Made by a program: the position numbers and the translations under genes. The notes beneath the pieces are model-generated. The model ran no database searches. It was not told where the DNA came from and saw only the letters and a list, made by a program, of their open reading frames with translations. Positions 5,277 to 22,867 of a stretch of DNA of 64,000 nt are shown piece after piece (positions within the stretch are counted from its first letter, which is position 1; the number at the start of each line of letters is the position of its first letter). The stretch covers positions 1-64,000 of the forward strand of contig NZ_KE384303.1 in the NCBI RefSeq assembly GCF_000425105.1, written 5' to 3'. This DNA is from Agrococcus lahaulensis DSM 17612. Lineage in GTDB: Bacteria; Actinomycetota; Actinomycetes; Actinomycetales; Microbacteriaceae.

Positions 5277-5336
5277 CAGGATGTTTGCGGCGTGCCGCAT
5301 CTCCTTGGCGTGCCGACATACGCACAGGGAGTCAAG

Positions 5337-7207: not shown

Positions 7208-8668
7208 TCACCCCGCCCGTTGAGTCCCAAGCAGCTTCAGGAGTTTGAAGGCTCCGCGCAGATTCCGGCGAGCGTCAGGTACCAGGCTCAGTAGTAGCAG
7301 GATCATGATAGAGCACGCTGCAGCTCCAGCGGCGATAGCGAGACCCCCCGAAGCAACAGAGGTCAATGCGGTCACGAAGACCGCGGTCAACGCGCCGGCC
7401 GCGCCGGCCGTTATAAGTAGGACGCCGTTAGCGAAGAGGCGTCGTACCGGAACGCCCGTCGCGCGCCCGAGCCAAACAGTGCTGACCGGCCACGCCAACG
7501 CCATGCCGATGGAATACCCGACCGCTATTCCGAGCACACCGAAAGCAGAGCCAATCGCAACGCAAACGATCACGAGCGGCTTACTGATCATGTCGGACCG
7601 AAGCAAGGCACGGCTCCGCCCGGTTACCACGAAACCCCAGTGGTTCACCATGCTCAAGGCGTAGAAGCAACCTCCTACCGCGAGGGCTTGGAAGATGGGT
7701 ATGGTGCGCTCCCACCCACCGCCCAATAGGAAAGGAACGAGTGACTGAGCCGTTCCTGCCGCTATGGCAAGCACGCCGATGACGGCGAGACCGACTACGA
7801 ACTGAATCCGGAGGAGCATGGGCCCCAGTGCGCGCCCCTGAGCGCGTGCTCGATTGAGGGTGGGAACTACAACCTGCATGAGCGGGCCGAGCAGAAGACT
7901 CGAGAACGCGAGGAGTTGTAGCCCTCGATTGTAATAGCCGAGAGTAGTTGACCCGAAACGCCAGCCCACTACAAGCGAGTCAGCGCTTGTCTGCAGGAAA
8001 GCGAGAAGCTGCACGAAGGTGTACTCAGCTCCGACCGCAAGGGCGCGACATGCGCCGTTGCCCCTGCGGAAGCGAATCGGCTTCCAGCGAGTGGCGGCGA
8101 AACGCATAGCTAAGAGCACAACCGCCGCTACCAGGTGTTGAGCGATCAATGCCCAATAACTGGCGCCTGCGGCCGCGAGAGCCACGGCGGAGCCAAGGCC
8201 AGCAACCATCGACACGACTTCGCCAACTACCAGCGCGCGGTAACGCATGTTGCGCGAGAGTTGCACGTGCAATTGCGCCGACAGCCCGCCGAGGAGCAGA
8301 AGCGACGCCATGCTCGGGACGACGACCCAAAGCAGCGGCTCGTTGAACCACGCCGCAAGCAGTGGCGTGGCCAAACACAGGCCAACCGCCGCGGCTGACC
8401 CAAACGCAACGTTGAGCCAGAACATGTTCGATGCTTGCTGGTGGGACAACTCGGGGGCTTGTAACGCGACAGTAGGTAGACCAAAGTCGCGCAGAAGTGA
8501 TCCCAGTGCGATGAAGACGGCCACGAGCGCCACCACGCCAAAGTCCTCGGGCAGCAGCAAGCGAGCAAGAATCGTCACCGATAGAACTTGAACGACGGCC
8601 TTGGTCAGGCTGCCGGCCACAACGAGCGCACCGCCCCGTGCGCCGTCTGCCAGCACGCTCTGCGACAA
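7208..8668 (-). CDS. Polysaccharide flippase of the MOP superfamily (Wzx/WzxC-like)
   Basis: An integral membrane protein of about 486 residues with some 12-14 hydrophobic helices spread along its length. It is typical of lipid-linked oligosaccharide flippases. Characteristic stretches are the N-terminal GARGGALVVAGSLTKAVVQV, ILARLLLPEDFGVVALV and the middle segment ADSLVVGWRFGSTTLGYYNR, which match the WzxC / polysaccharide_synt family. It would move undecaprenyl-PP-linked repeat units to the outer face of the membrane for polymerisation. The TTG at 8668 is preferred because GAGGA lies 8 nt upstream and the MOP domain begins there; a longer in-frame start reaches 8725. The codon composition is less GC-rich than in flanking housekeeping genes, as is common in such loci. 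Confidence 0.88.
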   Translation of the reverse strand: MSQSVLADGARGGALVVAGSLTKAVVQVLSVTILARLLLPEDFGVVALVAVFIALGSLLRDFGLPTVALQAPELSHQQASNMFWLNVAFGSAAAVGLCLATPLLAAWFNEPLLWVVVPSMASLLLLGGLSAQLHVQLSRNMRYRALVVGEVVSMVAGLGSAVALAAAGASYWALIAQHLVAAVVLLAMRFAATRWKPIRFRRGNGACRALAVGAEYTFVQLLAFLQTSADSLVVGWRFGSTTLGYYNRGLQLLAFSSLLLGPLMQVVVPTLNRARAQGRALGPMLLRIQFVVGLAVIGVLAIAAGTAQSLVPFLLGGGWERTIPIFQALAVGGCFYALSMVNHWGFVVTGRSRALLRSDMISKPLVIVCVAIGSAFGVLGIAVGYSIGMALAWPVSTVWLGRATGVPVRRLFANGVLLITAGAAGALTAVFVTALTSVASGGLAIAAGAAACSIMILLLLSLVPDARRNLRGAFKLLKLLGTQRAG

Positions 8669-8925
8669 AGTGTTGTCCTCGAATCTGCAGCTCAAGGATG
8701 CGCGTAGGGCGCTTCCGTGGCCCACCGGACAGGGCCGTCGCTCCGATCAGCCTATCGCCCTGCCGTCTAGCTGTTTCCGGCAATGGCCGTAACACGGCGG
8801 GTCGTAGCGCGGACCCCGCGGGATGAGCGGTATTGTGAAAGCTTCGCCTACCGACGGAGGTCCTCGTGTCTCGCGCGAACGGCCGGGTCACGCCTCAGGG
8901 CGGGGGCCGATCGCGGCGCCGGGTG

Positions 8926-9515
8926 TCAAGGCGCTGCTGACGCTCGCAGGTCGTCGCCACCAAGGACGCTGATGTCCCTGTCGACCGCTGAGTCGAACGC
9001 TTCGGGGGTGGAATGGTCTGCGGCGCAGAGGAGGAATCGGCCCTTCCAGCCCCGTCGCCAACGCCCGCGCCGCGCTTCGAGGTGCGCCTCGGTCGGGACA
9101 GATCACGCACCTCCTCGGAATTCTCGCCCCGCGCGTCGCATAGGTGCTGCACGGCCAGCGCGCGCTGCCGTTCCCCTGACCCGATGACGGGCGAAGTTGT
9201 CCGCGCTTCGAAGCAGGTCTCGATTCGCGACATGCGAGAGCGGCTGCCAGCTTGTAGTGAGAAGCGCCGTCCAATCGCGGCGACCGGTGATCCAGTCGCA
9301 AGAACGATGCGCCTGGCGCAGCGCACCAGCGCAGGCCGAAGCGCGCTACGACCGAGTCCGCTCGCCTGTCGACGACCATTCCCGACTCGCGGCTACCTGC
9401 GTCAGCAGGCCGTTGTCTGCCCTCGAGGCATACCGTTACCCGCTGCACCGCCCGCGTCGTCGCCCTTGCCGCCTGGGCCGAGTTGCAACTCAGAGAAATC
9501 CACGCGCTCGCTCAT
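8926..9515 (-). pseudogene. Decayed gene in the polysaccharide locus
   Basis: No intact gene spans this interval, but the minus strand reads like the remains of one. From an ATG at 9515 it begins MSERVDFSELQLGPGGKGDD and soon meets a stop. Further on, in another frame, a protein-like stretch with DWITGRRDWTALLTTSWQPL and HVANRDLLRSADNFARHRV appears. After one TGA the same frame continues with VPTEAHLEARRGRW, GRFLLCAADHSTPEAFDSAV and DISVLGGDDLRASAAP to a stop at 8926. Third positions in these parts are mostly G or C, as in real genes. The family was not recognised; from context it may have been a sugar transferase or sugar-modifying enzyme. Confidence 0.45.
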
Positions 9516-9771
9516 CGAGCCCATTCGTCACCCACACCGCGCCAGAGTCATGGCGCGGCACATCCACCCGGAGCGGGCAACGGTTCTGGTGTCTGCCCCT
9601 CATCCGGGTCCAGGCACGTCGATTGCAGTCGCGGGCTCGGTGGCGCGGCGAGGCCGGATAGGCTAAGGGGGCGACAGGCTTGATACATCGGCTCGCAGCG
9701 GCCGTGACCCTGCCGGCGTTGGACGAGACTAGGCGTCGCAGTTTAACCGAAACCGAGCGGAGAGTTCACTG

Positions 9772-11073
9772 ATGCGCGAGAACCTACCGAGGGTGCTGAT
9801 CATTGCTGTCAACCCGCTCTCGAAGACTTCGAATAACGGAAAGACATACGCATCCTTCTTCGAAGGCTATCCTTCCGAGCGAATTGCACAGCTGTATTTC
9901 CATCGCGAACTACCGAACTCGAGTATCACAACCCGGTTCTACCGAGTGTCGGACGAAGACGTACTGCGATTCATGACTCGCAGGACGCGGTCGCTGGGAG
10001 CGCCCGTGGAGGCCACGACGATAGCAGATCAGGTTCTGTCGCCCGGAGCGACGCGCGCTCTGGCTTCGTCGCAGACGATCCGCTCAGCGCGCAGTGCCGT
10101 GCTCGGAGGGGTGCTGCGCCTCGGATACCGCGACATCAGGAGTTGGATCGATGATTTCGATCCTGAGGTCATCTTCTTCAGCGGCGGCGACGCAACCCAT
10201 CTCTACCCGTTGGTCGTTCGCATATCGCGCGACTTCGAGGCCAAGATCTTCAGTTATGTCACTGACGACTATGTATTGCCGCTGCCCGCAGGAAACCCGA
10301 TGGCTAAGCTGGCCCGCGCGAGCGTCCGTCGACACTTCCTCGCAATGTGCGCGGCGAGCGAGCGTGTGCTGACCATTGGGGACAAAATGACGAACGTCTA
10401 TCGCGAACAGTTTGGTATCGCGTCCACGCCGCTGATGAATCTTGTAGAAGTGACTAGTGCGACGGTTGCTCATCGCGACTCTTTGCCCGGCCTGATTATT
10501 CTGACATACGCCGGCGGGCTACACCTGAATCGCTGGAAGACGCTTGCTGAACTTGGCGCCGCGCTTGATCGAATTCAGGGCCGGGGGACGAGAGCCGAAC
10601 TCCACATCTACACCTCAACACACATTGATTCAGCAATGGATCAAGCGCTTCGCTCTTCTGAGTCCATTGTGATGCACGAGGCCGTCGACGCGAGCCAACT
10701 GCGGCGAGTCTACGAGAGCGCCGACTTGCTGGTCCACGTCGAGTCGTTCGAACGAAGCGACCAAGTTGCGACGTACCTGTCCGTATCGACGAAGATTCCT
10801 GAGTATCTCGCCGCCGGACGGGCGGTTCTCGCAATAGGACCGGCAGGTGTTGCTTCTATGGAGTATCTAGCCAGCTCGGGTGCAGCCTACGTCGCGTCTT
10901 CGCTCGGCCACGATGAGCTGGACGTGGTGGTGGAGGAGGCGGTTCATGATCGCGAAGCGCGGGCTGATAAGGCGCTTCGCGGTCTTGAGGTGGCCTTGGC
11001 GAATCACGAGGCCGGTCGCTCGCGGGCCAAACTGTGGGAAGCACTCCGTGACGCCGCGCACGTTGGAGCGTGA
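9772..11073 (+). CDS. Glycosyltransferase, GT-B fold (family 4-like)
   Basis: A 433-residue cytoplasmic protein. The N-terminal half starts RVLIIAVNPLSKTSNNGKTY, an acceptor-domain Rossmann start. The C-terminal half begins with LIILTYAGGLHLNRW and contains the donor-site motif KIPEYLAAGRAVLAIG, which is the E-x7-type nucleotide-phosphate site of retaining family 4 enzymes. It would add one sugar to the lipid-linked repeat unit; donor and linkage cannot be predicted. The ATG at 9772 follows GGAGAG by 7 nt. It reads towards the polymerase at 11203. The composition is AT-richer than in flanking core genes. Confidence 0.82.
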   Translation: MRENLPRVLIIAVNPLSKTSNNGKTYASFFEGYPSERIAQLYFHRELPNSSITTRFYRVSDEDVLRFMTRRTRSLGAPVEATTIADQVLSPGATRALASSQTIRSARSAVLGGVLRLGYRDIRSWIDDFDPEVIFFSGGDATHLYPLVVRISRDFEAKIFSYVTDDYVLPLPAGNPMAKLARASVRRHFLAMCAASERVLTIGDKMTNVYREQFGIASTPLMNLVEVTSATVAHRDSLPGLIILTYAGGLHLNRWKTLAELGAALDRIQGRGTRAELHIYTSTHIDSAMDQALRSSESIVMHEAVDASQLRRVYESADLLVHVESFERSDQVATYLSVSTKIPEYLAAGRAVLAIGPAGVASMEYLASSGAAYVASSLGHDELDVVVEEAVHDREARADKALRGLEVALANHEAGRSRAKLWEALRDAAHVGA

Positions 11074-11202: not shown

Positions 11203-12498
11203 ATGAGTTCGTTGCGGGTCCTAAGCTACGCATACGCGGTTCTAGCGCTGTATGTACTCGCGCTGGCGTCGCTGACGAGTATGACCGCGACACAAGTGCT
11301 GCCAGCATTGATGCAACTTCTCATTTGTGTTGTGCTCTTCGCATTTGGATACTCATTCGGTCGGTCTGCGCGGATTCCGCGAGAAGTTTCGGAAATTCCG
11401 CCGAGGCATTGGAACGGCACGATCGCCGTGGGTCTGGGTATGACCGCAATAGTGGCGAGTATCTTGTCTGCTCAGTACAGCACGGGCATGTCACCGGCGC
11501 AAGTGATTAGCGGGCTCGGCGGAGATCAGTCGCTCTACGTGCAGTATCAGGGCTACACCCAAGAACTTGTCGAAGCAGGCGGCGGAGGGGCACTCACCAT
11601 CTGGTTCGCGATGCAAGTCGTTACGTACGCGATCGCGATTTGCGCGGTGATGTCGGTGGTCGCCCGTGGGGGGCGCGTCGCGCCCCAGGAGTGGGTGCTG
11701 CTCTCGTTTTCCCTCGCCGCGATGGCCTACTCGGGTCTCGCGCGGGGCACGGGGCTGGAGTTCTTCCATGTGGGCTCGGCACTGCTGTTCGCACTGTTGA
11801 TTCGGCCAGGGTCGAAGAATTCCCGCGCGCGTCAGTTGTACATCCTCGTTGTCGCGGTCGGTCTGGCGTCGCTTTATGTCGCGATCCTCGCTGCGCGGGG
11901 TGTGGATCCTGCTTTGCTGGACCTTGGTGAAATACATCTCGAGGACTCTTGGCTGCGGGAGATGCTCGGACCGGGCGTCGTCGGCGCGCTGCTGGCCTTC
12001 TACAGCTATTTCGGCTTCGGCTCTTTGTACGTCTCCACTTTCTGGACCGATGTATGGCTGCGAGACTGGCAGAGCTCCCTCCTATGGTTGCTTCCCGGCG
12101 GCTCGGCGCTCAACGGGACCGAGGTCCGTGACGTCATGACGGAAGTCGTAGAGGTAGGTGTCCGGTGGCACCCGGACTCGGTGCTCTTCGCCGCTAATGC
12201 AGGCATGCTCGGGTTCTTTGCGGCTTGCGTAATCCTGGGTAGGCTCGCGAGTCACCTCGAGTCCCGAGGTACCCTGGCGTCGACCATGATGCGGTACTTC
12301 GTGTTCCTTCAGATGCTAGCGTTCCCAGTCGGCAACTTCGTGTGGGTCGATAAGGCACCGTTGGTCGTAGTGATCTGGCTTCTGATGCTCGCCGCGATCC
12401 GCCGGCTCGGATTGCTGCCTCCGACTTTCCGGGAGTTCTTTTTTGGCGGGCAGGACGTCCCGATCAGGCGGCCGATCTCGAAGCATGCTGGCGCATAG
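11203..12498 (+). CDS. O-antigen/EPS polymerase-like membrane protein (Wzy-like)
   Basis: A 431-residue protein with about 10-12 hydrophobic helices, the first from residue 4 (VLSYAYAVLALYVLALASL). Two larger non-membrane loops lie near residues 85-120 and 225-300, the second containing LRDWQSSLLWLLPGGSALNG. Poor sequence conservation with this topology, in a locus that has a flippase, a co-polymerase and glycosyltransferases, is how Wzy polymerases normally appear. It would join repeat units on the outer membrane face. The assignment is from topology and context, not from a conserved motif. Its gene ends 28 nt before a strong hairpin terminator. Confidence 0.7.
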   Translation: MSSLRVLSYAYAVLALYVLALASLTSMTATQVLPALMQLLICVVLFAFGYSFGRSARIPREVSEIPPRHWNGTIAVGLGMTAIVASILSAQYSTGMSPAQVISGLGGDQSLYVQYQGYTQELVEAGGGGALTIWFAMQVVTYAIAICAVMSVVARGGRVAPQEWVLLSFSLAAMAYSGLARGTGLEFFHVGSALLFALLIRPGSKNSRARQLYILVVAVGLASLYVAILAARGVDPALLDLGEIHLEDSWLREMLGPGVVGALLAFYSYFGFGSLYVSTFWTDVWLRDWQSSLLWLLPGGSALNGTEVRDVMTEVVEVGVRWHPDSVLFAANAGMLGFFAACVILGRLASHLESRGTLASTMMRYFVFLQMLAFPVGNFVWVDKAPLVVVIWLLMLAAIRRLGLLPPTFREFFFGGQDVPIRRPISKHAGA

Positions 12499-12526: not shown

Positions 12527-12554
12527 GGGCACCGGTTCAAGCGAACCGGTGCCC
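12527..12554. terminator. Bidirectional hairpin terminator between wzy-like and fnlC-like genes
   Basis: A perfect 12-bp stem (GGGCACCGGTTC / GAACCGGTGCCC) with a 4-nt AAGC loop sits in the 65-nt gap between two convergent genes. There is no T-run, as is common in high-GC actinobacteria. It is well placed to stop transcription from both sides. Confidence 0.8.
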
Positions 12555-12563
12555 AGCCACATC

Positions 12564-13706
12564 TCACGCGTTCTGCCGGGTTCTAATGCCGGTTCGGGCG
12601 TGGTGAGTCCGCGCAGTCGACAGGATGAAGGCCACGACGCGACGCGAAGTGTCGGTGATCGAATAGTCCGACGGTACCTGCGGTCGGCCGAGCCGTTCGA
12701 AAGCGCGGAGCGCAAAGCCGACTGCTTCAGATACCGAGGTCGGCTCCACGCCACATGTGATCATTGCGGCCGTGTCTAGCGACTCAGGACGCTCAATTGC
12801 GTCGCGCATTGTGACCGCGGGGAAGCCCAGCATGCTGGACTCCTCGCTAATAGTGCCGCTGTCCGAGAGCACGAGCTTCGCGGACAGTTGAAGCCGGACA
12901 TAATCATTGAACCCGAAGGGACGGTGCAGAATCAGGTTGCCCTTCAAGTCGGCGCTCTGCTCTTCGAGGCGCCGCCTCGTGCGAGGATGTGTCGAGACAA
13001 GCACGGGCACGTCGTACTCTTCGGACAATGAGTTCAACGACCGCAGAGCAAGCTCGAGCCGCACGGGGTTGTCGACGTTCTCCTCCCTGTGCAGACTGAC
13101 GAGGAAGTAGCCACCTTCGGTAAGACCCTGTCGGGCCAGCACGTCGCTCGCATCAATCCGCTCCTTGTTGTGTTGCAAGACCTCCTGGATCGGTGATCCT
13201 GTCACGATGATTCGCGACGGGTGGAGGCCCTCCACCAGCAGATTCCGACGCGCGTGCTCCGTATAGGCCAGGTTGTAGTCTGCGACGTGATCCACCAGAC
13301 GACGATTTGTTTCCTCGGGCACGTTCTCGTCGAACGAGCGGTTCCCTGCCTCCATGTGGTAGACGGGTATCTTCATGCGCTTCGCCATTACGGCCGAAAT
13401 GCAGCTATTCGTGTCGCCCAGTACGAGCATCGCATCTGGACGCTCCACTCGCAGGACTTCCTCCGTCTTGACGAGGATCGAGCCCATCACAGCGCCTAGT
13501 GAGGATGTCTCCGCCTCAAGAAAATGGTCGGGTCGGCGAAGCCCTAGGTCCTCGAAGAAGACTTCATTGAGCTCGTAGTCGTAGTTTTGGCCAGTGTGAG
13601 CCAGTACATGATCGGTATGCTCATCCAAGAGTTTTAGCGTAGGAGCGAGACGAATGATCTCTGGTCGCGTCCCTACAACGGTGAGCACCTTCAGTCGTTT
13701 GTTCAT
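12564..13706 (-). CDS. fnlC: UDP-sugar 2-epimerase, non-hydrolysing; FnlC/WbjD/CapG-type
   Basis: A 380-residue GT-B-like epimerase. Motifs include KVLTVVGTRPEIIRLAPTLK at the N-terminus, HTGQNYDYELNEVFFEDLGL, LVLGDTNSCISA, the acidic/His segment YHMEAGNRSFDENVPEE, LVSLHREENVDN and SDSGTISEES. Alone it would be called WecB-like. The YDYELNEVFF form and its place right after FnlA and FnlB homologues point to the C-2 epimerase that makes UDP-L-FucNAc from UDP-L-PneNAc. It overlaps the fnlB-like gene by 4 nt and is last in the operon. A plain UDP-ManNAc-forming WecB role remains possible. Confidence 0.85.
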   Translation of the reverse strand: MNKRLKVLTVVGTRPEIIRLAPTLKLLDEHTDHVLAHTGQNYDYELNEVFFEDLGLRRPDHFLEAETSSLGAVMGSILVKTEEVLRVERPDAMLVLGDTNSCISAVMAKRMKIPVYHMEAGNRSFDENVPEETNRRLVDHVADYNLAYTEHARRNLLVEGLHPSRIIVTGSPIQEVLQHNKERIDASDVLARQGLTEGGYFLVSLHREENVDNPVRLELALRSLNSLSEEYDVPVLVSTHPRTRRRLEEQSADLKGNLILHRPFGFNDYVRLQLSAKLVLSDSGTISEESSMLGFPAVTMRDAIERPESLDTAAMITCGVEPTSVSEAVGFALRAFERLGRPQVPSDYSITDTSRRVVAFILSTARTHHARTGIRTRQNA

Positions 13707-14797
13707 CGAATTACAGCCTCGTCGATCGTATCTGGAGCGGAAGGGTCAAAGATATCATTCGTCCAGAAGGCCGTGTACAGAAGCTGATGACCAGTGTTCT
13801 GAATCGAATGACTCCACATGGTCGGCATGTCGATAGCCACAGGGCTTTCACCATCGACGTGAAACTCAATTACGTCTTCAGTGAACAGGCGACGCAAACG
13901 AATTACGGCGCGGCCCGAAAGCACCGTAAAGCGCTCAATCTTTCGTCGGTGGAAGTGATCACCCCGGGTCACGCCCGCCACGGTCGTGGAGAAAGAAGAC
14001 TGGCCCGAGCCTCCGCGAGAGCGAACGATCTCGAAGAACGATCCGCGTGCATCTGCGTTCCTGCTAATTCGCACGGGCGCATGGGTCGGGAAGGTGTAGG
14101 AGCGATACGTATTGAATAGGTTGCGGCTGAACGGCGAAGCAATGTCTGGGATCTCCCCTTCCGCGTACACCGCCGACACTCCGCGAAGGCGCCCCAACAA
14201 TCCGCTGACTGTCTCCTGTGCCGAAAGCGACTCCACGGTAGTCGCGGGCGCTGCTCCGATTAGGGCATCTGCAGCGTCCTGTGCATGAAGGAGTGTCAGC
14301 TCCTTGTCGTGCTCGACTGTCGGCTCCTCGCCGTCAGCCAAGAGTTGGCAGAATGTCGATGTGACGGCGTTGTAGAACGGCCTGCCGTGCTCACCGAATA
14401 GATTCGGGAGGTGTAGATCGACAAATTCGGCCCCAACGCGCTCGGCAGCAGAAGCAAGGATGCCGGCGGCGCGGGCTTTGGACTCACCGTACACGGTGCC
14501 ATTGGTCGATTGCGTGGAGTTGGCGAATGACACGACACTGGGCGGGGGCTCGGCGGTGACAATGGCGGAAGCCGCCTGCTCGGCGAAGTGGACGTTTCCT
14601 TCCGCCACATCGACTTCCGAGCCGCGGTTGACGCCCGCGATGTGAATGAAACGATCGCTCGAAGCCGCGCGCGCAGCGGCGTCGGCGTCGAAGTTGTCAC
14701 CGACGGCGACCGATTGGACAGTCGTCGAGGTTTCCTTCAGTGCCGCGCGCGTGTGCCACCCCAGGAAGCCTCGCGCGCCGGTCATCGCCACGCTCAT
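13703..14797 (-). CDS. fnlB: CapF/FnlB-like reductase: SDR domain fused to a cupin
   Basis: A 364-residue two-domain protein. Residues 1-240 form an NADPH-dependent SDR domain starting MSVAMTGARGFLGWHTRAAL, with YGESKARA carrying the catalytic Tyr and Lys. Residues 250-364 form a cupin with DARGSFFEIVRS, the metal-type HFHRRKIERFTVLSG motif and PTMWSHSIQNTG. This fusion is specific to CapF/WbjC/FnlB, which reduces the 4-keto intermediate made by FnlA to UDP-L-PneNAc; in the known enzyme the cupin also acts in a C3 epimerisation step. Four-nt overlaps with both neighbours indicate translational coupling. The length equals that of studied homologues. Confidence 0.9.
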   Translation of the reverse strand: MSVAMTGARGFLGWHTRAALKETSTTVQSVAVGDNFDADAAARAASSDRFIHIAGVNRGSEVDVAEGNVHFAEQAASAIVTAEPPPSVVSFANSTQSTNGTVYGESKARAAGILASAAERVGAEFVDLHLPNLFGEHGRPFYNAVTSTFCQLLADGEEPTVEHDKELTLLHAQDAADALIGAAPATTVESLSAQETVSGLLGRLRGVSAVYAEGEIPDIASPFSRNLFNTYRSYTFPTHAPVRISRNADARGSFFEIVRSRGGSGQSSFSTTVAGVTRGDHFHRRKIERFTVLSGRAVIRLRRLFTEDVIEFHVDGESPVAIDMPTMWSHSIQNTGHQLLYTAFWTNDIFDPSAPDTIDEAVIR

Positions 14798-15837
14798 TTG
14801 GCAGGCCGCTCGATGCCTGCCTCGCGCAGCTCCCGATGGATCTCGGGAAGCGTAAGCAGGAGTTGCTCGACCTCCGGGATCGACATGCGATCGACGGTGT
14901 GTGAGTCGTAGTCGTCGTACTGGTTCTGACGCGGATCGCCCTCGTCCACGTAGACCCCGTAGTTGAGCTCGCGCGCGTCCGCTTTGATCCGGAAATAGTC
15001 TCCCATGTCTTCGGCACGGGACAGTTCTTCGCGGTTGGCCAAGGCCTCGGATCGCTTCTCTGCATGACGCGTGCCGATCACCTCTACGCTCGCGTCAGCC
15101 TCAAACAGGTTGATCACAGCCCTAGCCAGGTCCCCAATCGTGCAGGCTTTGGCCTTCCGAATGAAGAGGTCCCCCTGGACCGCATTGTGGAAGGCGAACT
15201 CGACCAAGCTGACGGAGTCGGCGAGCGACATCATGAAGCGTGTCATGCCCGGATCCGTAACGGTTAAGTTCTTTCCCGCACGCAGCTGGCGCACGAAGAG
15301 CGGGATCACCGAGCCGCGTGAATACATGACGTTGCCGTAGCGGACGCACGACACGGTTGTGGTCGCGTCACGATTGTTGAGGCCGTAAGACTGCGCGACT
15401 TTCTCCATCATGGCCTTGCTCATACCCATGGCATTCACCGGGTACACAGCCTTGTCGGTGCTCAGGCATACGAGGGAGGTCACTCCCGCGTGGTCCGCCG
15501 CCCGAACGACGTGCTCGCTGCCCATCACGTTCGTGCGTACCGCTTCCATCGGGAAGAACTCGCACGATGGCACTTGCTTTAAAGCGGCGGCATGGAAAGC
15601 GAAATCGACACCACGCATTGCACGCTCTACGCTGGTGTAATCCCGGATGTCGCCTACGTAGAACCGAAGTCGTGAATCCGAGATCTCGTGCCGCATCAGA
15701 TCCTGCTTAGCCTCGTCGCGACTAAAGATGCGGATCTGAGAAACATCGGTCTCGAGCAACTTCCTTGCGACTGTGTGGCCGAACGATCCTGTACCCCCAG
15801 TGATGAGTACGGTCGATCCCGAGTAGTCGTGGGTCAC
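14794..15837 (-). CDS. fnlA: CapE/FnlA-like UDP-GlcNAc 4,6-dehydratase/5-epimerase
   Basis: A 347-residue soluble SDR enzyme. It has the NADP motif GGTGSFGHTVARKLL (residues 13-27), FSRDEAKQDLMRHE, the catalytic LSTDKAVYPVNAMGMSK segment in which Thr-Asp-Lys replaces the usual Tyr region, and RYGNVMYSRGSVIPLF. These are hallmarks of the inverting dehydratases CapE, WbjB and FnlA, which take UDP-GlcNAc to a 4-keto-6-deoxy-L-sugar as the first step to UDP-L-FucNAc. It lacks the N-terminal membrane part of PglF, which is encoded upstream in the same operon. It overlaps both neighbours by 4 nt. Confidence 0.92.
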   Translation of the reverse strand: MTHDYSGSTVLITGGTGSFGHTVARKLLETDVSQIRIFSRDEAKQDLMRHEISDSRLRFYVGDIRDYTSVERAMRGVDFAFHAAALKQVPSCEFFPMEAVRTNVMGSEHVVRAADHAGVTSLVCLSTDKAVYPVNAMGMSKAMMEKVAQSYGLNNRDATTTVSCVRYGNVMYSRGSVIPLFVRQLRAGKNLTVTDPGMTRFMMSLADSVSLVEFAFHNAVQGDLFIRKAKACTIGDLARAVINLFEADASVEVIGTRHAEKRSEALANREELSRAEDMGDYFRIKADARELNYGVYVDEGDPRQNQYDDYDSHTVDRMSIPEVEQLLLTLPEIHRELREAGIERPAK

Positions 15838-17060
15838 GGTTTTCCTTCCTGTGCTGCGGTCTCCAGCAGGCGCTCGATCACGTCGACGCCGTGCTCCAAG
15901 GACATGGTGGTCTTGTACGTATGGCGCGCTCGGCGGGCCATCGCCTCTCTGGACGCTCCGTCCAGCGATATCGCCGCCTGAATGGCCTTGGCGAGCGCGC
16001 CCGGGTCCTCAGGAGAGACTGCGAGCCCGAAGCCGAATGCCTCGACGAGGCGCTTGACATCACCGCCGACGGAGGCAATAACCGGAACGCCGTCGCGTAG
16101 GCTTGCTTGAAGCTTCGACGGAATCGTGCCTCGCATAATAGGGAGGTCACGCAACGAGACGAGTTGGAAGTCGCTTTGCCGCGCCACCGCGGCGAGCGCA
16201 GATGGAGGGACGCGCCCGTGGAAAGTGACGTTTCGGCTAGCGAGCGACGCAGCGAGTTCGCGCAGTTGCGGTTCAGCGACCCCGGAGCCGAACAAATGGA
16301 GATGCGCGTGGTTTGGGCGCTCGAGCAGCGCCATCGCCCGGATCGCGGTATCGAGGCCTTGGAGATCACCGAGGTTGCCCGCGTAGACGATCTCGAGACG
16401 CTCACCGCTGCCTCGGATCTGAATTGGGGCGTCACGCGACTGAATGGGACTCTCGTCCGCCCAATTCAGCAGAGTGGTGAGCTTGGCGCGATCCACGCCG
16501 CGGCTCTCGAGCGATGCAGCCATGGTCGGCGCGATCGCGATGACGTGCGAGGCTCGCCGGTACGCGGACCGTAGCCAAGGCTCAAGAACCGCGTCGATCG
16601 TTTGAGCTACGCGGCCCGATACCAGCGAAGAGCCGGTAATGGACTCAGGCCAGAGGTCTTGAACGTGCAGCACGTACGGCGCGCGCCCCAGAGTTCGCCA
16701 CAGCTGGGGGCCAAGTGCGGCGGTCATCTGAGTCGCGTAGACGTATACGGCGTCCGCAGACCGAAGCGCTGCCATAGCGACGGTCGAGGATGCCGCGAAA
16801 GTCGCGTAGTTCGCCATCCTCAATAGCGCACGACCGGAGTGGTCGGGGAAGAGGGGCACCCTCAACACCCGAACTCCGCGCACCGTCTCTACCTGGCGAC
16901 TGCGGAGGCGGTAGCCCGAGTAGACGCGACCATCCGGATAGTTAGGGAAGCCCGTGACGACGGTGACCTGGTGCCCGCGGCGCGCAAGCTCTTCCGCCAG
17001 GGTTGTGGGAATCGCGACAGGTTCGGGGTGGTAGTACTGCGACACGATGGCGATCTTCAT
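15834..17060 (-). CDS. Glycosyltransferase family 4, WbuB-like (probable L-FucNAc transferase)
   Basis: A retaining GT-B glycosyltransferase of 408 residues. The N-terminus MKIAIVSQYYHPEPVAIPTT and GHQVTVVTGFPNYPDG are strongly WbuB-like, as is HVQDLWPESITGSSLVSG. The donor domain holds IVYAGNLGDLQGLDTAIRA and the phosphate-site GTIPSKLQASLRDGVPVIAS. WbuB-type enzymes in E. coli O26 and relatives add L-FucNAc, and here the gene is directly followed by fnlA-B-C, so this donor is likely. The ATG at 17060 overlaps pglD by 4 nt; an in-frame GTG/ATG extension to 17114 only adds residues not seen in the family. Confidence 0.88.
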   Translation of the reverse strand: MKIAIVSQYYHPEPVAIPTTLAEELARRGHQVTVVTGFPNYPDGRVYSGYRLRSRQVETVRGVRVLRVPLFPDHSGRALLRMANYATFAASSTVAMAALRSADAVYVYATQMTAALGPQLWRTLGRAPYVLHVQDLWPESITGSSLVSGRVAQTIDAVLEPWLRSAYRRASHVIAIAPTMAASLESRGVDRAKLTTLLNWADESPIQSRDAPIQIRGSGERLEIVYAGNLGDLQGLDTAIRAMALLERPNHAHLHLFGSGVAEPQLRELAASLASRNVTFHGRVPPSALAAVARQSDFQLVSLRDLPIMRGTIPSKLQASLRDGVPVIASVGGDVKRLVEAFGFGLAVSPEDPGALAKAIQAAISLDGASREAMARRARHTYKTTMSLEHGVDVIERLLETAAQEGKP

Positions 17061-17695
17061 CGTGCCGGGACCCCCTTCACCGTGCGGCCAGGTTCCACCG
17101 AACGCGTGACGCACGCGGCTGCGCCGATCAGTGCTCCCTCACCGACTAAGAGGCCCTGGAGGATGACTGCACCCGCGCCAACAAGCGACGTGGCGCCTAT
17201 TGTCACCTCACCTGAGACGACCGCGGCCGGATTGATCGACACCCAATCGTGAAGCGTTGAGTCGTGCCCGATGGTGGCGTTCGGGTTCACGTGGCCGCCG
17301 ACGCCGATCGTCACGTTCGTCGAGATCTGCGCGCCTCCGCAGATGATCGTGCCGGGAGCCAGCGACACCAAGGATCCGACGTGCGCGGCCGGGTGCACGA
17401 GCGTCGCAGGGCGATGGCCGGCACCCTCAAGGCGTGCGTGCAGGCGTTGCCGAGCCGCCGGGGAGCCGATCGCGACGGTGAACCAAACCGGCTCGCCGCT
17501 CGAGTCGAGGAAGGTGTCCAGGGCACCCAACCAAGGAACGCCGCGCGCCGCGAGGCGGTCGAGCTGCACGGCAGCTGGCGCGTCGTCGATGACACCGACG
17601 ACGTCCCACCGAGGGCTCACACTGTTGATAGCCTCGATGACATCCAGAGCCTCTCGACCGAAGCCGCCGGCTCCCAACACGACGATGCGTTCCAT
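17057..17695 (-). CDS. pglD: PglD/NeuD-like sugar O/N-acetyltransferase
   Basis: A 212-residue acyltransferase with an N-terminal nucleotide-sugar-binding Rossmann part (MERIVVLGAGGFGREALDVI) and a C-terminal left-handed beta helix of hexapeptide repeats (ISTNVTIGVGGHVNPNATIG onward). The catalytic His candidates lie in ATIGHDSTLHDW, matching PglD. PglD transfers acetyl from acetyl-CoA to the 4-amino group of UDP-4-amino-sugars. With PglE and PglF homologues directly upstream, this would complete UDP-N,N'-diacetylbacillosamine or a stereoisomer. It overlaps pglC by 1 nt and the WbuB-like gene by 4 nt. Confidence 0.9.
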   Translation of the reverse strand: MERIVVLGAGGFGREALDVIEAINSVSPRWDVVGVIDDAPAAVQLDRLAARGVPWLGALDTFLDSSGEPVWFTVAIGSPAARQRLHARLEGAGHRPATLVHPAAHVGSLVSLAPGTIICGGAQISTNVTIGVGGHVNPNATIGHDSTLHDWVSINPAAVVSGEVTIGATSLVGAGAVILQGLLVGEGALIGAAACVTRSVEPGRTVKGVPAR

Positions 17696-18318
17696 CAGCG
17701 ATGCACCTGCTCGGCACCCTCGAACGGGCGCATCGTCACGTGTCCCTCGGCGGAGATCCCGGTTCGACGGAAGACAGCGACGATGGTTTCAAGCATGACT
17801 CGAGCGTCGAGAGCCAGGCTACGGGAGTCGACGTACTCGACGTCGAGCGCGAAGCGTTCCTCCCAAGAGAGGGCATTGCGCCCGCGGACCTGCGCAAGGC
17901 CTGTGATGCCGGGCCTGACCTCGTGGCGACGGGCCTGTTCGTGCGTGTAGCGGTCGAGGTACTCGACGAGGAGCGGTCGCGGCCCGACGAAGCTCATTTC
18001 GCCCTTCAGGACGTTCCAGAGGCTGGGGAGTTCGTCGAGACTGGAGGCACGGAGGGCGGCGCCGAAAGGCGTCATCCGATCGGCGTCGCTCACGAGCCCC
18101 TTCGTCGGGTCGGGCGACCGCATCGAGCGGAACTTGAGCAGAGTGAAGATGCGGCCGTTCTGGCCCGGCCGCGGTTGCCGGAAGAGCACGGGTCGTCCCA
18201 ACTTCAGCGCCACGCCGAGGGCGACACCGGCCAGCAGGGGAGAAGCGGCGACCAAGCCGGTAGCGCTGCCGACGACGTCGAGACCTCGCTTCAGTCTGTC
18301 GTATCGGCGCGTCGTCAC
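17695..18318 (-). CDS. pglC: PglC-like initiating phosphoglycosyl transferase
   Basis: A 207-residue monotopic phosphoglycosyl transferase of the minimal PglC type. It has one N-terminal re-entrant hydrophobic helix (about residues 14-36) and the motif FRQPRPGQNGRIFTLLKFRSM. The catalytic Asp-Glu dyad lies in SSLDELPSLWNVLKGEMSFV, followed by GPRPL and RPGITGLAQVRGRNAL. It transfers the phospho-sugar from its UDP form to undecaprenyl phosphate and so starts the repeat unit. The small size, without the four extra helices of WbaP, and its place beside pglF/E/D suggest a diacetamido sugar as substrate. It overlaps pglE by 4 nt. Confidence 0.9.
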   Translation of the reverse strand: MTTRRYDRLKRGLDVVGSATGLVAASPLLAGVALGVALKLGRPVLFRQPRPGQNGRIFTLLKFRSMRSPDPTKGLVSDADRMTPFGAALRASSLDELPSLWNVLKGEMSFVGPRPLLVEYLDRYTHEQARRHEVRPGITGLAQVRGRNALSWEERFALDVEYVDSRSLALDARVMLETIVAVFRRTGISAEGHVTMRPFEGAEQVHR

Positions 18319-19457
18319 GCCGCTACTCGCTCGACCAGCGCACCACGCAGTACTCGGTGCACGCGCTCCAACTCGTCATCACGCAGCGCTGACCCGCTCG
18401 GCAGCGTCAAGCCGCGCGTGAACAGGGCCTCCGACGCTCCGCTCACGAAGGACCTCAGGTGCGCGAAGACCGGTTGCAGGTGCATGGGCTTCCACAACGG
18501 GCGCGCCTCGATCGATTCAGCCGCGAGCGCCGCCTGCACGGCCGCGGGTGAGATGCCGGTCGCCCGGTCGTCGATGATGATGGACGTGAGCCAGCAGTTG
18601 TCTTCGCCGTCGTCTACACCCTGAAACAGCTCGACGCCATCGACGGCGCTGAAGAGCTGTCGATACGATTCGCGGATCCTGCGCCGTCGCGCCATCATCT
18701 CGTCCAGTCGCTGCAGCTGGGCTCTGCCGAGCGCAGCGAGAATGTTCGAGAGTCGGTAGTTGTAGCCGACATCGACATGCTCGTAGTGGGCGACCGGCTG
18801 ACGTGCCTGGGTGGCGAGGTATCGGGCTCGTGACGCGAGGTCCCCGTCATCGGTCAGCAGCATCCCGCCGCCCGACGTCGTCATGATCTTGTTCCCGTTG
18901 AACGAGACGATCGACGCTACGCCGAATGATCCGGCCGCGCGGCCACGGTGCCGCGCTCCCAGCGACTCAGCCGCATCCGCGAGGATCGGTATTTCGCGCT
19001 CAGCGGCGAGCTGCTCGATAGCGGTGTAATCCACCGCCCGACCAAGGAGGTCGACGGGAACGATCGCCTTCGCGGGTGTGCCGTCCTGCTCAAGAGCAGC
19101 AAGTGCTTCTTCCAGCAGGTTGACGTCGATGTTGCCGTCTTCGAGGCGGCTGTCGACGAGAACCGGAGTCGCGCCCGTGTAGGTGATCGCGTTGATCGTC
19201 GCAGCGAACGTCATCGATGATGTGACGACGATGTCACCAGGCCCAATGCCGAGACCCAGCAAACCGAGGTGAAGCGCTGCGGTGCCGCTCGACAGCGCAA
19301 CGCCGTGGGCGACACCGACGCGGCCCGCGAGTTCTCGCTCGAACGCATCGACCTCGGGCCCGAGCGGTGCGATCCAACCCGAGTCCATCGCTCGTCGGAC
19401 AGCGGTCTTCTCGTCGTCCCCGACGTCCGGAGACGACATGTAGATTCGGTCGTTCAT
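18315..19457 (-). CDS. pglE: PglE-like PLP-dependent aminotransferase
   Basis: A 380-residue DegT/DnrJ/EryC1-family aminotransferase. Visible signatures are DSGWIAPLGPEVDAFERELA, the substrate-threading ALSSGTAALHLGLL, LADAAESLGARHRG with the cofactor-binding Asp, and the PLP Lys in SFNGNKIMTTSGGG (about residue 186), followed by GYNYRLSNILAALG. PglE puts an amino group on C4 of the 4-keto sugar made by PglF, using glutamate. The ATG at 19457 is preferred because upstream in-frame sequence is antisense to pglF. It overlaps pglF by 4 nt and pglC by 4 nt. Confidence 0.92.
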   Translation of the reverse strand: MNDRIYMSSPDVGDDEKTAVRRAMDSGWIAPLGPEVDAFERELAGRVGVAHGVALSSGTAALHLGLLGLGIGPGDIVVTSSMTFAATINAITYTGATPVLVDSRLEDGNIDVNLLEEALAALEQDGTPAKAIVPVDLLGRAVDYTAIEQLAAEREIPILADAAESLGARHRGRAAGSFGVASIVSFNGNKIMTTSGGGMLLTDDGDLASRARYLATQARQPVAHYEHVDVGYNYRLSNILAALGRAQLQRLDEMMARRRRIRESYRQLFSAVDGVELFQGVDDGEDNCWLTSIIIDDRATGISPAAVQAALAAESIEARPLWKPMHLQPVFAHLRSFVSGASEALFTRGLTLPSGSALRDDELERVHRVLRGALVERVAA

Positions 19458-21337
19458 CGGGTTCCCCTCAGTCCGAGCTGGCTCGGCACGATGGGAGCCG
19501 TCGCGCCCCCGATGTGTGCTTGCTCTGCATCGTTGTGCGTGTCGTTCGATCGACGCTCCCGATCCCAATGCGAATCCCATACTGCCTTGTCCAGATCGTC
19601 CGGCAGCAGCGGTTCGCCACGCGCGTGCGTGATCTTCTCGTGGAACGGGCGCTCGTCGTGCTCGCCGGCGCCGATCAATTCCTCGTGCAGCTTCTCGTGC
19701 GGTCGAAGGCCGGTGTACACGATCTCGATCGGCTTGCCGGACATGCGGATCATCCGCTTCGCCACATCGAGGATCTTCACGGGCTCGCCCATATCGAGAA
19801 TGAGCACCTCGCCCGGACGGCCGATGCCGCCGGCCTGGACGACCAACTGACACGCCTCCGGGATCGTCATGAAGTAGCGCGTGATGTCGGGGTGAGTTAC
19901 CGTCAAGGGGCCGCCTGCCTCGATCAGCGCAGTGAACGTTGGCAACATCGACCCGCGACTGCCCAGGACATTGCCGAAGCGGACCGAGAGGTAGCGCCCA
20001 ACACCGCGCTCCGCGTACGAAGCGGTCAGGCGCTCAGCTAGCCGCTTCGAGTGGCCCAGCACGCTCGTGGGGTTGGCGGCCTTGTCGGTGGAAATGTTGA
20101 CGAACGTCTCGACCTCGGCAGCATAAGCGCCCTCGAGAACGTTGAGTGTGCCGAGCACATTGGTCTTCCATGCTTCGTCTGGATACTGCTCGAGCATGGG
20201 GAGGTGCTTCAAGGCAGCGGCGTGGAAGACGACGTGCGGGCGTCTCTCCGCCATCAGGTCGCGGATTGCGTCGGCATCGCGGATGTCGGCGAGCACCACA
20301 TCCTTCGTGTGGAGCAGGCCATGGCCGGCGATCGAGATCTGCACCGCCTGTAGCGCCGATTCGTCGCGGTCGAGCATCATCAGCTCGGATGGCCCGAAGC
20401 GGGCGATCTGACGGCAGAGTTCGGCACCGATGGAGCCCCCAGCGCCGGTGACCAGCACACGCTTGCCGGTGAGGTAGCCAGCGACTGTCTCGATGTCGGT
20501 GTCCACAGGGTGGCGGCCGATGATGTCTTCGATCGAGATCTCCCGCAGGTCGCCCATCGCGCTGCGGCCCTCGAGAATGTCGTCGAGCGGCGGCAGAACG
20601 AGCACCCGCAGGTCGGCGGCGGCGGCTCGATCTGAGATTCGTTGCATCAGCGAGGCATCGGCCCGGGCGATAGCGATCACCATGGTGGTCGCTCCGGTCG
20701 CTCGCGCCACTTCCGCGAGCTGCTCGCCCGTGCCAAGCACACGCACCCCAGTCCGCACCGCCTTGGCGAGGTTGGGAGAGTCGTCGATGATGCCGACCGG
20801 GTTGTACCGGGACTGTGGGTCAGTGCGCATGCGCTTGATCAGGCTTGACCCGACAAATCCTGCTCCGTAGACGAGGATCGGCGTCGCAGCGTCCTTCGGC
20901 CGGCTCGCCCGCTCTTGCGCCAGGCGGCGGAAGTAGCGAGTAAGTGCCATCGCCAGGAACGCGAGCGGCGCGGCGATGAACGGCGTGCTCCGCGGGATCC
21001 CGATCTCCGGTCCGGCGATCAGGACAGGGAGGCCGATGACGATCGTCGTCAGCGCCACCGATCCCGTGAGGCTGAGCACCTCGTCGAAACTGCCGACGTG
21101 GTAGCGGCGGCGATACAGGGCGAGCGCACTGCCAGCTGCGAGCTGAGAGAGCGCCGCCAGCACAACGAGCGCGAGCATCGCGAGCCAGTTCGTCTCTCCA
21201 AAACCGAACTCGTACCGCAGCCACACTGCGAGGACGATCGCGCCGATCCATGCGATCGCATCGAAGAGGTACTGGAACACCCGCATGTTGGCGCGCAGCG
21301 ACCTGCTCCTGCCGTCGCCCTGTGCGCTGGGTTCCAC
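19454..21337 (-). CDS. pglF: PglF-like membrane-bound UDP-GlcNAc 4,6-dehydratase
   Basis: A 627-residue protein of the PglF/WbpM/CapD class. Four membrane helices fill about residues 18-140. A CoA-binding-like Rossmann domain follows (GAGFVGSSLIKRM), and a C-terminal SDR catalytic domain starts at LVTGAGGSIGAELCRQIA. The catalytic segment is NISTDKAANPTSVLGHSKR, with Thr-Asp-Lys in place of the usual Tyr. It removes water from UDP-GlcNAc to give UDP-4-keto-6-deoxy-GlcNAc, the first step towards bacillosamine-like sugars. The GTG at 21337 has GGAGG 5 nt upstream. It is first in the eight-gene operon and diverges from galU, with 185 nt between them for both promoters. Confidence 0.93.
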   Translation of the reverse strand: MEPSAQGDGRSRSLRANMRVFQYLFDAIAWIGAIVLAVWLRYEFGFGETNWLAMLALVVLAALSQLAAGSALALYRRRYHVGSFDEVLSLTGSVALTTIVIGLPVLIAGPEIGIPRSTPFIAAPLAFLAMALTRYFRRLAQERASRPKDAATPILVYGAGFVGSSLIKRMRTDPQSRYNPVGIIDDSPNLAKAVRTGVRVLGTGEQLAEVARATGATTMVIAIARADASLMQRISDRAAAADLRVLVLPPLDDILEGRSAMGDLREISIEDIIGRHPVDTDIETVAGYLTGKRVLVTGAGGSIGAELCRQIARFGPSELMMLDRDESALQAVQISIAGHGLLHTKDVVLADIRDADAIRDLMAERRPHVVFHAAALKHLPMLEQYPDEAWKTNVLGTLNVLEGAYAAEVETFVNISTDKAANPTSVLGHSKRLAERLTASYAERGVGRYLSVRFGNVLGSRGSMLPTFTALIEAGGPLTVTHPDITRYFMTIPEACQLVVQAGGIGRPGEVLILDMGEPVKILDVAKRMIRMSGKPIEIVYTGLRPHEKLHEELIGAGEHDERPFHEKITHARGEPLLPDDLDKAVWDSHWDRERRSNDTHNDAEQAHIGGATAPIVPSQLGLRGTR

Positions 21338-21522: not shown

Positions 21523-22425
21523 ATGCGCCATTCTGTCACCAAGGTCGTCATCCCCGCGGCAGGGCTGGGCACCCGCTTCCTGCCAGCGACGAAGGCGCTC
21601 CCGAAGGAGATGATGCCGGTCGTCGACAAGCCGGCGATCCAGTACGTCGTCGAGGAAGCGGTGCGCGCCGGGCTTCCCGATGTGCTCTTCGTGACCGGGC
21701 GCAACAAGAACGCGCTGGAGAACCACTTCGACCGTGCGACCGAGCTCGAGCAGATCCTCACGCGCAAGGGCGACGCGGACCGACTCGAGAAGGTCGCGGA
21801 GTCGACGGGGCTCGCCAATGTGCACTACGTACGGCAGGGCGACCCGCTCGGGCTCGGCCACGCGGTGCTGCGCTCGCGGGCGCACGTCAACGGCGACTCC
21901 TTCGCGGTGCTGCTCGGCGACGACATCATCGACCCGCGCGACCACTTGCTCGAGCGCATGCTGCAGGTGCACAACGAGCGCGACACGTGCGTCGTGGCGC
22001 TCATGGAGGTCGACCCGGCGCAAGCACACTTGTACGGCATCGCCACCGTCGACGCGACCGAGGAGGACGACGTCGTGCGCGTGCGCGGGCTCGTCGAGAA
22101 GCCGGAGCCGGGCACGGCGCCCTCGAACCTCGCGATCGTCGGCCGCTACGTGCTGAAGCCCGAGATCTACCCGGTGCTCGAGCGGACCGCGCCCGGCCGC
22201 GGGGGAGAGATCCAGCTCACGGATGCGCTCCTCACCATGGCGGAGGACGATGCAGAGGGCGGCGTGCACGGCGTGATCTTCCGCGGTCGTCGCTATGACA
22301 CGGGCGACAAGCTCGACTACATCAAGGCGAACGTGATGCTCGCGTGCGAGCGCGATGATCTCGGGCCGGGTCTGCGCGAATGGCTCCGCGAGTATGTGGA
22401 GCGGTTCTCGGAACAGCCGGCATAG
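21523..22425 (+). CDS. galU: UTP-glucose-1-phosphate uridylyltransferase
   Basis: A 300-residue nucleotidyltransferase that makes UDP-glucose from UTP and glucose-1-phosphate. The nucleotide motif AAGLGTRFLPATKALPKEM is at residues 13-31, followed by VDKPAIQYVVEEAV, FVTGRNKNALENHFD, VRQGDPLGLGHAVL and LLGDDII with the metal-binding Asp. RYDTGDKLDYIKAN near the end is also typical. The ATG at 21523 is chosen over an in-frame GTG three codons earlier. UDP-glucose would feed the adjacent polysaccharide genes and, through GalE at 2476, UDP-galactose. Confidence 0.95.
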   Translation: MRHSVTKVVIPAAGLGTRFLPATKALPKEMMPVVDKPAIQYVVEEAVRAGLPDVLFVTGRNKNALENHFDRATELEQILTRKGDADRLEKVAESTGLANVHYVRQGDPLGLGHAVLRSRAHVNGDSFAVLLGDDIIDPRDHLLERMLQVHNERDTCVVALMEVDPAQAHLYGIATVDATEEDDVVRVRGLVEKPEPGTAPSNLAIVGRYVLKPEIYPVLERTAPGRGGEIQLTDALLTMAEDDAEGGVHGVIFRGRRYDTGDKLDYIKANVMLACERDDLGPGLREWLREYVERFSEQPA

Positions 22426-22522: not shown

Positions 22523-22867
22523 ATGGCAAAGCAGACTTTCACCAAGCTCGTCGATGACTTCACGGGCGAGCCCATCGAGGATGGCACCGGTCGCACGGTG
22601 CGATTCGGATTCGACGGCGCTGAGTACGAGATCGACCTCAGCAACGACAACATCGAAGAGCTCTCGAGCACGCTCGAGCGCTATGTGCGGGCATCGCGCC
22701 GCGTCTCGGGCCGCAGCCGCGGCCGCAGCTCGGGCAGCAGCCGCCGCAGCAGCGGTGGCAGCGGCGAGACCGCGGCGATCCGTGAGTGGGCCGAGTCGCA
22801 GGGGCTGAAGGTCGCCTCGCGCGGCCGCATCCCCGCCGACATCGTGGAGCGATACAAGAACCGCTGA
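22523..22867 (+). CDS. lsr2: Lsr2-type nucleoid-associated xenogeneic silencer
   Basis: A 114-residue Lsr2 protein that bridges and silences AT-rich DNA in actinobacteria. The N-terminal dimerisation part (residues 1-55: QTFTKLVDDFTGEPIEDGTG, then VRFGFDGAEYEIDLS) and the C-terminal DNA-binding part (about 78-114: IREWAESQGLKVASRGRIPA) are intact. The AT-hook-like RGR is at SRGRIP. The linker is an unusual Ser/Arg/Gly run (SGRSRGRSSGSSRRSSGGSG), longer and more basic than I would expect, which may add non-specific DNA contact. It directly follows the polysaccharide locus, whose central genes are less GC-rich, so they are plausible targets. Confidence 0.95.
   Translation: MAKQTFTKLVDDFTGEPIEDGTGRTVRFGFDGAEYEIDLSNDNIEELSSTLERYVRASRRVSGRSRGRSSGSSRRSSGGSGETAAIREWAESQGLKVASRGRIPADIVERYKNR

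Follow-up and report, generated by a model that had tools for sequence, protein, structure and literature searches.

In the O-polysaccharide of Flavobacterium psychrophilum, a PglC homologue loads D-Qui2NAc4NR, an N4-substituted amino sugar, and a WbuB homologue then adds N-acetyl-L-fucosamine (L-FucNAc), according to the available text of PMC6519341. Bacillus subtilis EpsC, EpsN and EpsM make N,N'-diacetylbacillosamine (diNAcBac) and EpsL loads it, which was claimed in 2023 as the first evidence for bacillosamine in a Gram-positive exopolysaccharide (EPS) (available text of PMC10653937). The K loci of Acinetobacter baumannii carry fnlABC and qhb/gdr modules, with 2,4-diacetamido-2,4,6-trideoxyglucose (QuiNAc4NAc) as a known first sugar (PMC9676051 and PMC10320297, in the parts available). 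Here we describe an operon in the first 64,000 nucleotides of contig NZ_KE384303.1 of Agrococcus lahaulensis DSM 17612 (the window), in which eight genes at 12564-21337 combine a bacillosamine-type set, a WbuB-type glycosyltransferase (GT) and an L-FucNAc set. We propose, with a probability of about 0.78, that it supplies the sugars and starts the chain of a Wzx/Wzy-type surface polysaccharide, with an acylated bacillosamine as the first sugar and L-FucNAc as the second. The genes, from PglF to FnlC, are the following.

19454-21337, minus strand: PglF, a long membrane-bound uridine diphosphate N-acetylglucosamine (UDP-GlcNAc) 4,6-dehydratase of 627 aa (5bju, E = 1.6e-77; Polysacc_synt_2 and CoA_binding_3)
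18315-19457, minus strand: PglE, a pyridoxal phosphate-dependent 4-aminotransferase (best solved relatives 1o61 and 4ztc, E = 1.9e-73 and 1.3e-72)
17695-18318, minus strand: PglC, a small phosphoglycosyl transferase (PGT) loading the first sugar onto the lipid carrier (match to 8e37)
17057-17695, minus strand: PglD-family hexapeptide N-acyltransferase (TIGR03570, 182 bits, cut-off 160.8)
15834-17060, minus strand: WcaI/WbuB-type GT4 glycosyltransferase (Pfam GT4 domains; NF007640 below its cut-off)
14794-15837, minus strand: FnlA, a CapE-type UDP-GlcNAc 4,6-dehydratase/5-epimerase (CapE, 414 bits)
13703-14797, minus strand: FnlB, a CapF-type epimerase/reductase (Cap5F, E = 2.7e-53; C-terminal PF14667 domain)
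12564-13706, minus strand: FnlC, a CapG-type 2-epimerase (CapG, 400 bits)

The eight open reading frames (ORFs) lie head-to-tail, and their junctions overlap by 4, 4, 1, 4, 4, 4 and 4 nt in the order given, six by 4 nt and one by 1 nt, just as an initial annotation of this DNA had described a coupled set. The GT starts with an ATG at 17060, the listed ORF reaching 17114 through an upstream in-frame GTG. The G+C profile of the codons is of the coding type in all eight genes, low at the second position and high at the third; given this pattern, the strong homologues and the recurrence of the order in other genomes, the set lies beyond chance. A sequence scan found no consensus promoter.

Based on comparison with PDB sequences, the first four genes form a bacillosamine-type module. 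The best solved relative of PglF is 5bju, itself a PglF (PMC7725333, available text), at 264 bits, the next other relative reaching 133 bits. The protein has three hydrophobic segments, and in the alignment it has L where 5bjy has Y and 5bju has M. PglE shares the stretches NGNK and HYEH with 1o61 and 4ztc, which we take to be PglE proteins (4ztc has A for K), and perosamine synthetase is without both. PglC is a small monotopic PGT whose closest relative is a diNAcBac transferase: it scores 200 bits against 8e37 (N,N'-diacetylbacillosaminyl-1-phosphate transferase) versus 110 bits against WbaP, and consists of a single small PGT domain with a DE dyad and an SLDELP stretch aligned with 8e37. 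The solved relatives of the PglD-type protein are VioB (90 bits), 4m9c (78 bits) and the pilin glycosylation protein 4m98 (68 bits), and we assign it at the family level only.

The last three genes form the second module, in which a CapE-type, a CapF-type and a CapG-type protein stand together, each named after its best solved relative; we take these Cap proteins to come from Staphylococcus aureus. FnlA scores 414 bits against CapE and 402 against 4j2o versus 201 against 2gn4, and the alignment of FnlB with Cap5F (184 bits) covers almost its full length. FnlC has further relatives in 4neq (239 bits, labelled UDP-GlcNAc 2-epimerase) and 1f6d (119 bits). An assignment of FnlC as WecB is disfavored by the 400 bits to CapG against 119 to 1f6d, though 4hwg, which also bears the UDP-GlcNAc 2-epimerase label, reaches 355.

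Related loci inform the roles of PglC and the GT. Forty-two loci were listed with extra query proteins, and the 31 counted below are L012 to L024 and L109 to L126, of which L022 (Leifsonia flava) and L115 represent one and the same DNA, with no difference over the 1000 bases compared. A tblastn match required E 1e-8 and 30% of the query, with one query counted per place; several loci end at contig ends, where a missing match says little. Between the window PglC and the PGT of the eight actinobacterial loci sharing the gene order, identity is 62-72%, and in most rows without PglD it is 35-53%. A same-strand WbuB-like GT of about 35% identity or more (35-53%) occurs in 26 of the 31 fnl loci, whatever their first-sugar module, and the GT at the matching place in L134, a locus that keeps PglF, PglE, PglC and PglD and has no fnl match, is 28% identical to that of the window. 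The GT thus accompanies the fnl genes and not the pgl genes, an argument for L-FucNAc as its donor; its role, likely the addition of L-FucNAc to the first sugar, is taken from context. A link between GT type and first-sugar type was unsupported, the GTs of L015 and L012, loci without PglD, ranking among the closest to that of the window.

Several observations weigh against these assignments. The 251 and 248 bits of PglE to 1o61 and 4ztc are nearly matched by 246 bits to perosamine synthetase, and PglE stays below the cut-off of the NCBIfam LegC model (338 vs 420). The PGT is 61, 59 and 56% identical in L012, L110 and L024 although these are without PglD, and just 53, 50 and 48% in L080, L082 and L064, which have PglD and lie outside the actinobacteria. 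The PglD-type protein scores 40 bits against 3bss, the UDP-N-acetylbacillosamine N-acetyltransferase, below VioB and 4m9c. FnlA and FnlB fall under their NCBIfam equivalog cut-offs (434 vs 730 and 172 vs 500 bits), the runner-up 4hwg comes close to CapG for FnlC, and FnlC exceeds the cut-off of the NCBIfam WecB model (240 vs 210). No PDB sequence matches the GT at E 1e-5, and a tree of 41 GT proteins does not sort by first-sugar module. Of the gene labels in the initial annotation, seven nevertheless stand by sequence comparison, that of PglD as a family label, and the eighth, the GT, by context; the equivalog cut-offs for FnlA and FnlB were not reached. The order of the predicted sugar pair is likewise supported, and its exact product names stay inferential.

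What might the first sugar be, if not diNAcBac? It could carry a different N4 acyl group (for example 3-hydroxybutanoyl, or a group derived from an acyl-acyl carrier protein) or an axial 4-amine of the galacto series, and we regard such a sugar as unlikely. PglD family members vary in substrate, and the protein here is closer to VioB, its best solved relative, and to 4m9c than to 3bss, so that acetyl-CoA is no more than its putative acyl donor. In A. baumannii, qhbAB/gdr is assigned to QuiNAc4NAc and qhbCB/gdr to the hydroxybutanoyl counterpart QuiNAc4NHb, and the PglD homologues of F. psychrophilum are predicted to transfer other acyl groups (PMC6519341; available text in both cases). The similarity of PglE would by itself leave the C4 configuration (gluco or galacto) unsettled, and we treat this configuration and the N4 acyl group as unproven. 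Against such a sugar stand PglC, which is of the diNAcBac-transferase type with its C-terminal stretch included, the NGNK and HYEH stretches that set PglE apart from perosamine synthetase, and the set of proteins scanned at 4.6-22.9 kb, which includes no acyl-carrier or ketoacyl family.

It is conceivable, at low probability, that the fnl set makes another 6-deoxy-L-N-acetylhexosamine, such as N-acetyl-L-quinovosamine (L-QuiNAc) or N-acetyl-L-pneumosamine (L-PneNAc). FnlA-type enzymes are common to several pathways, and the 355-bit second-best solved relative of FnlC carries a UDP-GlcNAc 2-epimerase label. Likewise, FnlC-type 2-epimerases are shared by several pathways (PMC7725333, available text). 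The middle gene, however, is CapF-type across nearly its full length, and FnlC is closest to CapG. We therefore keep L-FucNAc as the second sugar of the proposed polysaccharide.

The operon is convergent with two plus-strand genes, for a GT-B transferase and a polymerase-like protein, and the remaining features of the locus and its flank are these.

4590-5276, plus strand: low-molecular-weight protein tyrosine phosphatase of the Wzb type (PF01451, E = 2.6e-19)
5292-6752, plus strand: bacterial tyrosine kinase (BY-kinase) with a Wzz domain, a polysaccharide co-polymerase (TIGR01007, 186 bits, over its cut-off; PF02706)
7208-8725, minus strand: Wzx-type flippase of the MOP family (PF13440, E = 3.8e-55)
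9772-11073, plus strand: third glycosyltransferase, of GT-B fold (AlphaFold model, Foldseek; no Pfam match)
11203-12498, plus strand: polymerase (Wzy)-like membrane protein of 431 aa (eight hydrophobic segments)
12527-12554, no strand: perfect 12-bp inverted repeat between the convergent 3' ends of the polymerase-like gene and fnlC
21523-22425, plus strand: GalU-type nucleotidyltransferase, locus flank (PF00483)
22523-22867, plus strand: Lsr2, locus flank (PF11774 and PF23359, over their cut-offs)

The trio expected of a Wzx/Wzy-dependent locus, a flippase, a BY-kinase with Wzz domain and a PGT, is present. A Wzx/Wzy-type polymer is the best reading because the operon adjoins the flippase, the polymerase-like protein, the GT-B transferase and the BY-kinase, and the preference of the initial annotation for a surface polymer over an N-glycan is supported. 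The model of the GT-B protein, of predicted local distance difference test score (pLDDT) 77, was built on a four-row alignment, and its Foldseek matches are GT-B enzymes (best E = 1.2e-13, TM-score 0.61). A further point weighs on the other side: the 11203-12498 protein matches no Pfam family over cut-off, and we infer its polymerase role from position and hydropathy only.

We propose the following pathway. PglF and PglE would convert UDP-GlcNAc to a 4-amino-4,6-dideoxy sugar nucleotide, whose 4-amine the PglD-type enzyme would acylate, most likely with acetyl, to give UDP-diNAc-bacillosamine, and PglC would transfer the sugar 1-phosphate to undecaprenyl phosphate (Und-P). FnlA, FnlB and FnlC would make UDP-L-FucNAc, from which the WbuB-type GT4 enzyme would attach L-FucNAc as the second sugar, and the GT-B enzyme may attach a third. 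If each of the three locus transferases acts once, the unit would be a trisaccharide. Wzx would flip the unit and the polymerase-like membrane protein polymerize it under control of the BY-kinase; LCP proteins, three of which are coded outside the locus, may attach the polymer to the wall. In this scheme we infer the products and their stereochemistry, the acyl group, the linkages, the number of sugars and the wall attachment.

A lipid-linked glycan could instead serve O-linked protein glycosylation through a PglL-type ligase, with no polymerization, which we consider improbable. PglL ligases fall within the Wzy_C group, and two Wzy_C-domain proteins over cut-off are encoded elsewhere in the genome, both away from the locus. 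One of them, however, lies near the other of the two PGT genes of the genome (C2:219-223 kb; the first is the window PglC), and a BY-kinase with Wzz domain, a Wzx and a polymerase-like protein belong to the window locus itself. Protein N-glycosylation of the Campylobacter type, with which the locus shares the pglF, pglE, pglC and pglD genes, was rejected and is very improbable, since the whole assembly gave no match to STT3 (the PglB family) in a search that matched four of 14 control genomes, all archaeal, which extends to the assembly the earlier remark that the window holds no PglB. We retain a surface polysaccharide as the proposed product of the locus.

How far does the eight-gene order extend? 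From a genome scan with FnlA we took the best 80 of 587 confirmed loci, and the exact order on one strand recurs in six of these 80: in Microbacterium (L016, L018, L019, L020), Cellulomonas humilata (L023) and Sporosarcina quadrami (L080). The Sporosarcina locus is the weaker case, its GT match being 25% identical over part of the protein; protein identities are 45-78% in the actinobacterial loci and 25-55% in Sporosarcina. Two more of these 80 loci (Micromonospora L027, Dechloromonas L090) hold all eight genes in a different order. Among 398 genomes of the family, of which just those with FnlA at E 1e-120 were examined further, FnlA occurs at that level in 18, including our own. The other 17, with one region from the genus scan, gave 18 regions, three of which (L114, L116, L120), all from the 398 genomes, have the exact order; it is therefore found in at least four of the 398 genomes, our own included. 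Within the genus, FnlA at E 1e-60 occurs in three of 23 other genomes, none of which (L121, L122, L126) has the exact order. L120 carries a second PglD-like gene just past fnlC (6472-7107).

The eight-gene set is thus known elsewhere, with a direct Gram-negative precedent and several actinobacterial relatives, and is not unique. A database check for the order, proposed initially, did find it, at the expense of uniqueness, and the suggestion that the sugar pair would be noteworthy in a Gram-positive actinobacterium is weakened by the same order in Microbacterium, Cellulomonas and, less clearly, Sporosarcina, and further by the F. psychrophilum (PMC6519341) and B. subtilis (PMC10653937) precedents, as far as their available text goes. 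The observation as a whole is confirmed, and its earlier interpretation is partly supported.

The first-sugar genes vary among the 31 loci. PglE, PglC and PglD in the order of the window occur in eight (L016, L018, L019, L020, L023, L114, L116, L120); PglE with FemAB-like proteins, some also with GNAT proteins, in nine (L022, L115, L112, L113, L117, L119, L121, L122, L126), the FemAB-like gene preceding PglF in L121, L122 and L126; and a WecA-like PGT without PglE in six (L015, L021, L109, L111, L118, L123). In three (L012, L110, L013) PglD is missing and an ATP-grasp and a HAD protein are present, and five (L014, L017, L024, L124, L125) fit no class. In the three with ATP-grasp and HAD genes, these stand where pglD would be expected (7050-8767 in L012) and may provide an amide ligase for the 4-amino sugar. 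Only L015 and L113 show a clear reductase, and FnlB had no match in L123, L124 and L125. The single row of L113 contains both a WecA-like/reductase/GT set and a PglE/GT/PGT/FemAB set, which looks like a fusion of two modules.

The chromosomal site was compared in 12 galU regions taken from the genus, in which GalU matches at E 1e-80 in 23 of 24 genomes (our own included). In three regions (L132, L134, L139) the phosphatase and galU lie at opposite ends of the site, and two of these (L132, L134) also have lsr2 and the maltokinase-like gene; the remaining nine share galU, three with lsr2 as well. In L134, from a sister species at the same site, the phosphatase and BY-kinase are followed by PglF, PglE, PglC and PglD at 82, 73, 75 and 61% identity, and the place of the fnl genes is taken by the divergent GT, a hexapeptide protein, a DegT aminotransferase and a UDP-sugar dehydrogenase. 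These replacement genes presumably resemble a set for 2,3-diacetamido-2,3-dideoxyglucuronic acid (GlcNAc3NAcA). In L132 the space between phosphatase and galU holds a single ORF of 1533 aa, with Big_8 and DUF5979 domains, and BY-kinase is unmatched; in L139 it holds a BY-kinase and a PGT (45%), and PglF, PglE and the fnl genes have no match.

The FucNAc block is thus retained in many relatives whose first-sugar module differs, and L134 shows the reverse: the locus seems to be one of swappable blocks. We tentatively suggest that the Microbacteriaceae locus is modular in a serotype-like manner, its first- and second-sugar modules exchanged independently to give bacillosamine-type sugars with differing N4 groups, possibly amino acids. 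The first-sugar options might then be PglE-PglC-PglD, PglE with ATP-grasp/HAD, PglE with FemAB/GNAT-like (amino)acyl transferases, or a WecA-like PGT; for the second sugar, WbuB-fnlABC or a GT with hexapeptide transferase, aminotransferase and UDP-sugar dehydrogenase could alternate. The new part is this modularity, and the exchange of modules is more interesting than the sugar pair.

Base composition sets the operon apart from its surroundings. G+C is 59-68% in the eight genes versus 72.5% over 26-64 kb of the window, and third-position G+C is 68-82% versus 87-93% in the neighboring galU, lsr2 and maltokinase-like genes; both differences point to acquired DNA. On the upstream side, galU and lsr2 diverge from the operon, and lsr2, of a xenogeneic silencer family, directly adjoins this low-G+C, probably acquired locus. 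The inverted repeat at 12527-12554, a putative terminator, is without a T-run and is absent from the listing of the terminator/promoter scan. Inside the dense locus, the roughly 1.05 kb at 8726-9771, between flippase and GT-B gene, has no frame with a clear coding G+C pattern and is possibly a regulatory stretch or a decayed gene; one more hidden transferase there was dropped as a candidate, two scanned ORFs being also without a Pfam family. Elsewhere in the genome, another region of polysaccharide type lies at C2:219030-233278 (L003, L095, L129), where a PGT and a Wzy_C protein occur together with an FnlA/PglE-like pair.

The cluster and its relatives suggest that actinobacteria, too, start polymers with bacillosamine, follow with L-FucNAc and swap the halves. 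Such loci offer a natural set on which to examine how small PGTs and WbuB-type transferases choose their substrates, and the variants with ATP-grasp and FemAB proteins point to substituents at N4. Among described systems, the S. aureus CapE, CapF and CapG proteins are the nearest solved relatives of the three fnl proteins and belong to a Gram-positive capsule; to our knowledge the Cap system has no bacillosamine module. A. baumannii holds both sugar modules within one capsule gene repertoire, but it is Gram-negative, and the available text names no single locus or explicit unit with both sugars. The F. psychrophilum locus resembles ours in pglF, pglE, a pglD homologue, the PglC and WbuB homologues, fnl genes, flippase, polymerase and a trisaccharide unit; it differs in serving a Gram-negative lipopolysaccharide, in its dihydroxyhexanoyl acyl group and in L-rhamnose as third sugar, and the likeness is one of gene content (PMC6519341, available text). 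We recognized no published actinobacterial case within our limited literature coverage, and the genome tables of PMC7725333, available in part, may hold actinobacterial predictions. In the eps operon of B. subtilis, as in the proposed pathway, UDP-diNAcBac is loaded on Und-P (EpsC/N/M/L) as the first EPS sugar of a Gram-positive bacterium; its second sugar, however, is GlcNAc (EpsD), and the available text of PMC10653937 makes no mention of fnlABC. The loci of Microbacterium, C. humilata and S. quadrami, compared here by their genes, share with the Agrococcus operon the order and strand of all eight genes.

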